The notes under the pieces: generated by a model
Databases searched by the model: none
The model's input: the letters and a program-made list of their open reading frames with translations, nothing else
What the model was told of the DNA's origin: nothing
Part shown: piece by piece, positions 7,435 through 9,775 of the stretch
Layout: the number at the start of each line of letters is the position of its first letter
Position numbering within the stretch: the first letter of the stretch is position 1
Assembly (NCBI GenBank): GCA_012744475.1
Contig: JAAYBV010000063.1
Location: forward strand, 1 to 64,000
Length of the DNA: 64,000 bases
Direction: 5' to 3'
From: Phycisphaerae bacterium
GTDB taxonomy: Bacteria > Planctomycetota > Phycisphaerae > Sedimentisphaerales > Anaerobacaceae
Translations under genes and position numbers: made by a program

Positions 7435-8229
7435 TCACGTCCCTGCCAGCACCGGCACGTTCGCACGCAATCGAGCCTCGATCTCATCGGCCAGCATCGT
7501 GTATTCGCAAGCGGCCTTGCTGTCCGGCGCAAACGTGAAGATCGACTTGCCCGCTTCCGGGGCCTCCACCAGCCGAATCGTCTTGTGGATCACCGTGTCG
7601 AAGACGAGATCGCCGAACAACTCGCGCAACTGCAATTGGACCTTGCGCGTGTAAGCGGGGCGGTCCTCGACAAAGGTCAACAACAGACCGAGCGTCCGCG
7701 CCGAACACGGATGAAACCGCTTTTTGAGCACGCGGATGGTCTCCAGCAGACGCTTCAAACCTTCGAAGGCGTAGAAGTGAACCTGAACCGGGATAATCAC
7801 ATCCGTGCTGGCTACCAGGGCGTTGAGCATGAGCAGTCCCAGTGCCGGAGGGCAATCGATAATGCACATGTCATAGTGGTCCGCCACGGTGCGCAGCCAT
7901 TCCCCAAGCACCAGCTCCTTGCCGAGCACACCTTGCAGCTCCACTTCGGCCCCGGCCAGCCTCACGTTGCTCGGCACCAGGTCGAGCCACTCCACGTCGG
8001 TGGCCACCGCCACCTTGACGATCGACGCCCGCCGGTCGACCAGTCCATCGTAGATGGTCTTCTCGAAAGCATCCGGGTCGAACCCCATGCCCATGGTCGC
8101 GTGTCCCTGTGGGTCCAGGTCCACCAGGAGAACGCGGCGGCCCATTTTGGCAAACGCCACCGACAGATTCACTGCCGTAGTCGTCTTACCGCAGCCGCCC
8201 TTCTGGTTGACAACGGCGATCGTTCTCAT
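7435..8229 (-). CDS. ParA/Soj-type P-loop ATPase
   Basis: Deviant-Walker ATPase of the ParA/MinD superfamily, 264 residues from the chosen ATG. The N-terminus MRTIAVVNQKGGCGKTTTA carries the signature Walker A (KGGxGKT, Lys10 and Lys15); VLLVDLDPQGH is Walker A-prime and IIDCPPALG the Walker B region. In-frame upstream codons extend to 8274, so starts at 8241 or 8274 are possible, but family alignment favours 8229. No parB gene or parS-like palindrome adjoins it, so it is an orphan ParA that could position a cargo or the chromosome. Confidence 0.9.
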   Translation of the reverse strand: MRTIAVVNQKGGCGKTTTAVNLSVAFAKMGRRVLLVDLDPQGHATMGMGFDPDAFEKTIYDGLVDRRASIVKVAVATDVEWLDLVPSNVRLAGAEVELQGVLGKELVLGEWLRTVADHYDMCIIDCPPALGLLMLNALVASTDVIIPVQVHFYAFEGLKRLLETIRVLKKRFHPCSARTLGLLLTFVEDRPAYTRKVQLQLRELFGDLVFDTVIHKTIRLVEAPEAGKSIFTFAPDSKAACEYTMLADEIEARLRANVPVLAGT

Positions 8230-8597
8230 GGTCCCGGCCATACATCCATGGCGCATCGCCCCTCCCCGCATCACGCTGTCTTCTCATCGGCCAAATGCCC
8301 GCACCGCTGAATCCAGCTCCCAACCAGCGGGCGCAATCCCGGATGCGGGCAGCGACACGCCCGATAACCACCGTTGGGACCTGGTTTCGCCTCGGAGCAC
8401 CACCCCCGGAGCCGACCGGCATCGGTCTACGATTCCGGAACCGCCGGCGTGACCGCTCTCGCTGGAAAGGAAGGCAAGAAGAGGAAACGTGAGGTTGACG
8501 CAGAACGCCGGAAGCAGAACCTCGCAAACACCCGTCAATCCCACTCAGCCCATAGCACCATGCGACAGTCTATTCAGATTAACACGGGAGGGCCGTC
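8230..8597. other. intergenic region upstream of parA, no gene seen
   Basis: About 370 bases between parA and the candidate small RNA. Short open frames exist on both strands but none has a ribosome binding site, recognisable composition or family resemblance. It should contain the parA promoter, which I could not pinpoint. Confidence 0.5.
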
Positions 8598-8632
8598 AAA
8601 AAGCCAGATTCTAATGTAACAGAATCTGGCTT
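8598..8632 (-). terminator. intrinsic terminator of the small RNA
   Basis: Perfect 12-bp inverted repeat AAGCCAGATTCT / AGAATCTGGCTT with an 8-base loop, followed on the minus strand by a run of T. The plus strand lacks a T-run after the stem, so the terminator is directional. Confidence 0.7.
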
Positions 8633-8735
8633 CGGAGGAGGGTGATGAAAAGCTAAGTAAACGCCTTCAGAAAAGGCATCCTTGCTCTTATCATCGTAGT
8701 GTCCCACGGAAATTCTTTAGTGAAAAAGCAAGGAT
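8598..8735 (-). ncRNA. candidate trans-acting small RNA with its own promoter and terminator
   Basis: On the minus strand a promoter-like pair TTGATT (8769-8764) and TATTTT (8747-8742), 16 bases apart, predicts a start near 8735. The predicted RNA opens with ATCCTTGCT (8735-8727), which pairs perfectly with AGCAAGGAT (8686-8678) around a 40-base loop. A small hairpin GCCTT/AAGGC (8677-8663) follows, then an unpaired stretch containing CACCCTCCTCCG (8645-8634), complementary to a Shine-Dalgarno sequence. It ends in a perfect 12-bp hairpin (8632-8621 with 8612-8601, 8-base loop) running into five T (8602-8598). No protein frame fits. The segment is more AT-rich than its surroundings. I do not recognise it as a known RNA family. 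Confidence 0.6.
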
Positions 8736-8741
8736 ACCCAG

Positions 8742-8769
8742 AAAATACTCACTTCCGTTCAGGAATCAA
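8742..8769 (-). promoter_or_regulatory. predicted sigma-70-like promoter of the small RNA
   Basis: TTGATT at 8769-8764 and TATTTT at 8747-8742 with a 16-base spacer, read on the minus strand. The predicted start (about 8735) coincides with the first base of the 5' stem, which supports the assignment. Confidence 0.5.
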
Positions 8770-8920: not shown

Positions 8921-9775
8921 ATGAACAGCCGCATCACGATTTTGGATCTGTTGCAGGCCAAGCGGGATGGCCGTGCCATCGCCGTCGTGAGCTGTTACGA
9001 CTACACCACCGCGCGTCAGGTGGGCCAGGCGGGCGTTGACATGATCATTGTCGGTGACTCCGCAGCGCAGCTCATGTTCGGATTCGATTCCACGCTGCCG
9101 GCCACGATGGACATCATGGTCGCGCTGACCGCCGCTGTTCGTCGTGGCGCCCCCGACGTCTATCTCGTCGCCGACATGCCTTTCCTGTCTTACCAGATCA
9201 GTGCGGGCGAGGCGATTCGCAATGCCGGCCGGTTCCTGGTGGAATCCGGAGCGCAGATGGTGAAGATCGAGGCCGCCGGCGCTCATCTCGACACGATTCG
9301 AGCCGTCAGTGATTCGGGAATCGCCGTGATGGCCCACATCGGCATACGGCCGCAGAGGATCAGCACCGTCGGTCGGTTCCGCGCCGAGGCAACGACGGCA
9401 GAGATCGCGATGCAGTTGATTGACCTGGCTCGTCAGATGGTCAACGCCGGTGCCGCTGCGCTGCTTATCGAGGGGGCCGCAGCGGAAGTTTCCCAGATTA
9501 TCACAGAGCGGAGCGAGATTCCGGTAATCAGTTGTGGTTCCGGTCCTGCTTGCGACGGGCAGGTTCTCGTCGCTCCGGACATCCTGGGGCTGACCGACGG
9601 GAGACTGCCGAAGTTCTCCAAGACATACGCAGAGCTGGGACCGCGATCGATCGAGGCATTCCGCGCGTATGCCGAGGAGGTGAAGGCCCGGCGATTCCCC
9701 GACGACGAGCACAGCTACCACATGAAACCGGGGGAGTTGCAGCGACTGACGGACTTGCTGGGCCGCACGCACTGA
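8921..9775 (+). CDS. panB: 3-methyl-2-oxobutanoate hydroxymethyltransferase
   Basis: First committed step of pantothenate/coenzyme A synthesis: adds a hydroxymethyl group from methylenetetrahydrofolate to alpha-ketoisovalerate, giving ketopantoate. The 284-residue TIM barrel shows the metal-binding Asp46 in VGDSAAQLMFGFDST, the DMPFLSYQ strand and the MAHIGIRPQ motif with VGRF. The ATG at 8921 is preferred over in-frame upstream codons because the family N-terminus begins here and a promoter lies at 8855-8883. No good Shine-Dalgarno is visible. The usual partner panC is not adjacent. Confidence 0.95.
   Translation: MNSRITILDLLQAKRDGRAIAVVSCYDYTTARQVGQAGVDMIIVGDSAAQLMFGFDSTLPATMDIMVALTAAVRRGAPDVYLVADMPFLSYQISAGEAIRNAGRFLVESGAQMVKIEAAGAHLDTIRAVSDSGIAVMAHIGIRPQRISTVGRFRAEATTAEIAMQLIDLARQMVNAGAAALLIEGAAAEVSQIITERSEIPVISCGSGPACDGQVLVAPDILGLTDGRLPKFSKTYAELGPRSIEAFRAYAEEVKARRFPDDEHSYHMKPGELQRLTDLLGRTH

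Follow-up and report, generated by a model that had tools for sequence, protein, structure and literature searches.

A putative small RNA gene divergent from panB in Sedimentisphaerales, with a near-invariant core complementary to translation starts

The locus between parA and panB

The window (the whole stretch of DNA analysed, 64,000 nucleotides) contains on its minus strand a compact element located between a parA-like gene and a divergently transcribed gene that we take to be panB, on the basis of an earlier note on this DNA and of family knowledge. The genes and the predicted features of the element are listed below.

7435 to 8274, minus strand: open reading frame of a parA-like ATPase, downstream of the RNA gene
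8598 to 8633, minus strand: intrinsic terminator, a 13-14-bp hairpin GAAGCCAGAUUCUG/UAGAAUCUGGCUU followed by U5 (from folds and covariation)
8628 to 8651, minus strand: nearly invariant 24-nt core UUUUCAUCACCCUCCUCCGAAGCC (from conservation at panB-linked loci and the fold of 8683-8599)
8659 to 8681, minus strand: small 5' hairpin of the ~85-nt RNA, GGAUGCCUUU/GAAGGCGUUU (from the fold of 8683-8599)
8675 to 8739, minus strand: long 5' stem of the transcript from promoter P1, with arms at ~8739-8721 and ~8693-8675 and promoter P2 between them (minimum free energy fold)
8691 to 8720, minus strand: putative promoter P2, CTAAAG (8720-8715), N18, CGATGA (8696-8691), with a predicted RNA start at ~8683
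8742 to 8769, minus strand: putative promoter P1, that of the earlier note, TTGATT (8769-8764), N16, TATTTT (8747-8742), with a predicted start at ~8739
8921 to 9775, plus strand: open reading frame, presumably panB (ketopantoate hydroxymethyltransferase), divergently transcribed and conserved next to the RNA gene

Elsewhere in the window a cobalamin riboswitch is found at 179-391 on the plus strand (101 bits).

The earlier note had described, on the minus strand at 8598-8769, a promoter-like pair, a 5' stem, an exposed C-rich stretch and a terminator hairpin with a U-run, and every one of these parts was located at its place. For the 172-nt stretch the computed fold has -58.5 kcal/mol as compared with a mean of -38.3 kcal/mol for shuffled sequences (z -5.3; 0 of 200 shuffles as good), and GGGTATCC begins at 8739, downstream of P1. 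Two of the dimensions needed revision, since the 5' stem, given as 9 bp, has 19 pairs in the minimum free energy structure of the stretch, and the stem of the terminator, given as 12 bp, has 13-14 bp before its U5. The C-rich stretch lies directly 5' of the terminator hairpin. In the computed fold of the RNA from P2 (8683-8599; -31 kcal/mol, z -5.6) two hairpins enclose an unpaired seed, formed by the first 18-19 nt of the core and complementary to GGAGGA-GGGUG-AUG-AAAA.

The element has its own promoter and an intrinsic terminator, as the stand-alone, noncoding gene of a trans-acting sRNA should. A small peptide encoded in the 5' part was considered and rejected, as no open frame is kept there among the relatives (checked by eye). 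A simple promoter and terminator scanner flagged neither P1 nor the terminator, and the possibility of a chance arrangement was therefore judged through conservation.

Conservation, distribution and promoters

A BLAST search with the 172-nt query gave matches in 116 of 148 related genomes, mostly at 80-98% identity and in many genomes at 2-5 places. Outside the genus the matches comprise the 3' part alone (from position ~95-121 onward), that is, the C-rich stretch and the terminator. When public genomes were scanned for CATCACCCTCCTCCGNAGCC, at least 115 stretches were found; among the matches listed nearly all belong to Phycisphaerae, Sedimentisphaerales or unnamed Planctomycetota. Because these loci had been located through the core itself, conservation was retested by searching for PanB: the regions upstream of 80 panB genes were fetched and only afterwards examined for the element, which frees the comparison of the ASCERTAINMENT (ascertainment) bias. 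The element is divergent from panB in 61 of these 80 genomes of the order, distributed over the families as 36/36 (f1), 19/24 (f7), 4/10 (f2), 2/5 (f4, with one upstream region of 280 bases only) and 0/5 (f5). Three f7 genomes (G094, G098 and G110) have none beside panB, yet carry copies elsewhere, and many relatives have 2-5 copies per genome behind different promoters. The PanB cluster is the divergently transcribed 5'-side neighbour of most copies of the element. The parA-like neighbour is kept within the genus (the same protein lies beside the L148 copy) and is replaced by other neighbours elsewhere, so that it is not family-wide. In family f2 we also observed PanB genes with one in-frame TGA each (G099, C6:104252; G114, C50:11770).

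Of the 61 panB-linked loci, 57 carry the 24-mer TTTTCATCACCCTCCTCCGAAGCC unchanged and the remaining 4 differ from it by a single change. The core has a mean pairwise identity of 0.995, against 0.379 and 0.281 for the two preceding 24-nt blocks and 0.266 for the block past the terminator. This near-constancy across an order in which the adjacent PanB drops to about 53% identity among the most distant members suggests a central role. The terminator is preserved as a structure, with 96.0% of alignment cells paired as compared with 28-64% in slid controls, and 7 of 13 pairs show changes on both sides (37 such cells versus 8.0 in shuffles); its lower stem GAAGCCAG/CUGGCUU hardly varies and is as conserved as the seed. 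The element is thus placed far above chance by a near-invariant core across the order together with a covarying terminator, where the earlier note had named missing conservation or covariation in relatives as the outcome that would speak against it.

The search for Phycisphaerae homologues suggested there was carried out with a covariance model built from 56 different copies. It gives a single full copy in the genome of the window (74.3 bits), and among 391 genomes of the phylum its strong full-length matches are confined to the order Sedimentisphaerales of the class Phycisphaerae. Matches in other classes were rejected, as they score 25-31 bits and nearly all begin at model position 18 or later, and so represent the terminator alone. 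In Rfam 15 no family reaches its gathering score for the window element, and at E<=10 the only match is the terminator-shaped mir-148 (21.6 bits, gathering score 53), which bears out the assignment outside known RNA families. No prior description was found in literature searches that covered few subscription journals. We are almost certain that the small RNA gene is genuine and a member of a conserved family absent from Rfam, a family that, judging by Rfam and the literature searched, has not been described before. The parts of the gene are shown by comparison of genomes: predicted promoter or promoters of its own, a near-invariant core, a covarying terminator, the neighbourhood of panB and additional copies in relatives.

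The P2 motif (TAAAG, 17-18 nt, CGAT), with a T-run before and A-rich sequence after it, occurs at 54 of the 55 loci that families f1 and f7 have beside panB, against 0.3 expected across all 61 loci; the genome of the window has only 3 exact matches. P1 is real as a motif, being matched in 18 of 36 panB loci of f1, and P1-like sequences (TTGAT-N16/17-TANNTT) precede P2 in 33 of 83 P2-bearing copies, compared with 0.9 in shuffles; the near-universal promoter is nevertheless P2. Since this best-conserved promoter lies ~50 bp further down, a start near 8683 and a length of ~85 nt, rather than the ~138 nt deduced from P1, are probable for the main RNA, and in such an RNA the core would be fully exposed. 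Neither the start at 8739 nor the long 5' stem proved to be general: a strong stem is confined to the window and its nearest species in the genus, and with a mean z of -0.08 over 83 copies the stem was rejected as a family-wide feature. The small 5' hairpin differs among relatives in sequence and length.

P2 looks like a sigma-28 promoter, the flagellin promoter of the same genome being CTCAAG-N16-CGATAA; its assignment to FliA/sigma-28 was rejected, as the spacing of TAAAG-N17/18-CGAT is ~2 bp off the flagellin N16. The panB-linked genes of f2 and f4 have mostly sigma-70-type promoters. At L355 the predicted start falls almost at the core, which gives an RNA of ~60 nt and indicates that core and terminator alone can constitute the RNA. 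Copies elsewhere follow other promoter-like sequences, some with CGTCTAAT boxes that resemble ECF sigma sites (by eye). The module also recurs beside a small sigma-like HTH gene (L042, L165, L173, L116); in the first three of these loci a PAS sensor-kinase gene comes next, and the promoters have CGTCAT(A)CTATA-like boxes.

Thirteen IMG/VR contigs carry the module (L176-L188), with terminator stems that differ from those of host copies; all were picked out through the core pattern, which leaves only the differing stems as informative. Some of their copies lie 9-16 nt after phage gene stops and others near tyrosine integrases. On a contig labelled Candidatus Nealsonbacteria (L089), two copies at ~2706 and ~3801 flank a REP-type transposase, have TTGACA-type promoters and show a compensatory stem change from CCAG to CTAG. 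The phage and Nealsonbacteria copies suggest transfer, with binning errors as the alternative. In L120/L264, labelled Aenigmatarchaeota, modules are arranged in tandem, two of them with just a tRNA-like sequence in between. An archaeal host was rejected for L120 as a possible chimera, in which archaeal-looking and bacterial (CsrA-like) genes are mixed, and an archaeal or CPR host for L098, whose contig looks like a misbinned planctomycete.

Another C-rich hairpin RNA that is conserved was observed at L325:15690-15800 (in the genome of the window, contig C114 ~20752) and also at L248. It has a stem AAGCCCCUG..CAGGGGCUU with a 26-30-nt loop containing CUUUUCCUCUCCCUCC, a TATATT box upstream in the genome of the window, occurrences in at least 8 relatives by pattern search, and no match in Rfam; it is possibly a sibling sRNA.

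Proposed action and rival explanations

The exposed anti-Shine-Dalgarno motif of the candidate sRNA, noticed earlier in the single sequence, is strongly supported by the conservation, the covariation, the terminator and the promoters. The complement of the core, CGGAGGAGGGUGAUGAAAAG, reads as a complete translation start with a Shine-Dalgarno sequence, a 5-nt spacer, AUG, AAA and AG. Where copies differ upstream of CAU, AUG followed by a Lys, Arg or Asn codon is mostly preserved in the complement, and the complement of a second class of copies, UUCUUCUCAUC, is AUG AGA AGA. It is mainly because the core complement is a full translation start, with AUG and the codon kept in the variants, that pairing with start regions is proposed. 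We consider it probable that the locus is a stand-alone gene for a trans-acting base-pairing sRNA that covers translation starts and represses independently of Hfq. Transcription would proceed mainly from P2, probably via an alternative sigma factor, and would yield the ~85-nt RNA, whose exposed core is expected to pair with initiation regions (CCUCCUCC with the Shine-Dalgarno sequence, CAU with AUG and UUUU with an AAA second codon). This pairing would block binding of the 30S subunit without Hfq, the translation of chosen genes being probably shut off, and the copies in one cell, differently promoted, may act on overlapping targets as sibling RNAs. Translational repression, also proposed in the earlier note, is thus what we infer from the sequence of the core. 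Hfq (PF17209) was undetected in 60 of 60 genomes of relatives, that of the window included, with control genomes positive, which fits an Hfq-independent RNA like NfeR1.

A search for the complement (GGAGGAGGGTGATGAAAAG, up to 3 mismatches) in the genome of the window and in relatives gave few matches, and the f5 genomes, which have no such RNA beside panB, still give 1-2 complement matches each. The near-complementary starts of the relatives belong mostly to signal-peptide proteins (by eye), as do the two best duplexes among 435 genes of the window's genome (0.7 Mb sampled). Among the duplex energies of these 435 start regions only the second-best value stands out, being reached by 1 of 100 shuffles, and the average pairing over the sampled genes shows no gain versus shuffled seeds. 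The top target is predicted to pair moderately within the genus, where three species give -31, -26.5 and -21.7 kcal/mol; the pairing is weak outside the genus and not kept beyond it. Taken against the controls, the target predictions appear at best weakly above them. That exported-protein mRNAs are favoured as targets is a weak prediction; the controls trace this bias to the anti-Shine-Dalgarno part, that is, to the stronger Shine-Dalgarno sequences of those genes. As a separate observation, the closest core complement of its genome (2 mismatches) is the start GGAGGAGAGTTATGAAAAGC of an 82-aa frame, MKSIQISDELFDELK..., at L190 (contig C46 ~255036).

Two further points count against pairing with start regions. 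The computed accessibility of CAUCACCCUCCUCC has a mean of only 0.64 over 82 copies; the variable 5' parts are enriched in GGAG (30 of 82 copies, 12.7 expected), and some copies may thus partly mask their own seed. Furthermore, conservation of this degree, lower terminator stem included, exceeds what pairing with varied targets normally demands. An unlikely alternative is that the core mimics the 3' tail of 16S rRNA and either binds a factor recognising that tail, with the GTPase Era as a candidate, or competes for Shine-Dalgarno sequences generally. The 16S tail is GAUCACCUCCUU, to which AUCACC(C)UCCU of the core bears a resemblance; a core so extremely invariant suggests a partner that is likewise invariant; the search for mRNA targets in the genome of the window and its relatives gave none that is both strong and conserved; and the same core is present on phage contigs. 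However, the core contains one additional C and a further CUCC; in 16S rRNA the tail comes after helix 45, while here the hairpin comes after the motif; and the invariant UUUUC before AUCA, absent from the rRNA tail, suits a complement of AUG-AAA. It is distinctly unlikely that the RNA copies the 16S tail as a ribosome-directed regulator, controlling initiation or 30S maturation globally in bacteria without Hfq; the several copies tied to different promoters would then all serve this control, and the phage copies would use the same tag on their host.

The phage copies placed 9-16 nt behind gene stops (L177, L182, L184), together with a lower terminator stem as conserved as the seed, could also speak for a 3'-end module, i.e. 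a terminator or stability element whose C-rich stretch would have a role in protection, processing or protein binding and none in trans. We regard this as quite unlikely, given that panB-linked copies lie away from gene ends with dedicated promoters 30-94 nt upstream, that an invariant anti-Shine-Dalgarno sequence is unnecessary for a terminator, and that the divergent copies L244, L246 and L249 (found via the seed) change the stem and keep the seed. Conservation by copying, as in a REP-like hairpin or a phage attachment site, is mostly refuted and very improbable. Several copies per genome in relatives, the transposase between the two L089 copies and the tyrosine integrases near several phage-borne copies are in line with a mobile repeat; the window's genome, however, has one copy only, the position beside panB is stable across families, the stems of phage and host copies are different, and G542 has two copies that do not match outside the core region. 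A REP/RAYT repeat in particular was rejected on the single copy in this genome and on the L089-type transposase, which is matched at no other module locus. There is equally little chance that the element regulates panB in cis, as DNA or as RNA: panB is the divergent neighbour in 61 of 80 regions, but the U-tract and both promoters are directed away from it, and copies occur elsewhere, for example in G110, G094 and G098, whose panB has none adjacent.

Comparison with known small RNAs

For this group of Planctomycetota, in whose genomes Hfq is unrecognisable, Rfam and the searched literature describe no trans-acting sRNA family. The proposed antisense design, which would cover the Shine-Dalgarno sequence, AUG and second codon together, is directly testable, with the differently promoted and phage copies as ready comparisons. 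The enterobacterial sRNAs MicA and RybB depend on sigma-E, pair near the starts of envelope-protein mRNAs and need Hfq. The RNA considered here would resemble them in being driven by an alternative sigma factor and, as in L355, in a seed near the 5' end; it differs in its seed and in the proposed lack of an Hfq requirement, exported-protein targets being for it a weak prediction. Sibling or multicopy C-rich sRNAs, such as AbcR1/2 of rhizobia, the csRNAs of streptococci and RoxS/RsaE, use shared C/U-rich seeds to pair with Shine-Dalgarno sequences. The several related copies with a common seed proposed to pair with Shine-Dalgarno sequences are similar in this respect, whereas those systems belong to other phyla and have shorter seeds and other architectures.

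The closest likeness in the motif is to the NfeR1/alpha-r14 ('cuckoo') sRNAs of rhizobia, in which the anti-Shine-Dalgarno motif CCUCCUCC(C) is near-invariant amid variable surroundings (PMC10746234, where the AbcR sRNAs of rhizobia are also mentioned). NfeR1 is Hfq-independent and blocks the start regions of several targets, and in alpha-r14 each of the three hairpins carries CCUCCUCCC within an unpaired region (PMC10746234). The window RNA shares with them the anti-Shine-Dalgarno motif and a near-invariant core in variable surroundings, and would share the action at start regions; the Rfam search gave no sequence-structure match between NfeR1/alpha-r14 and the window element. Unlike alpha-r14, it has a single motif, placed before the terminator in the linker between two hairpins, and this motif is extended, in a different phylum, to a 24-nt core that covers the complement of AUG and the second codon.
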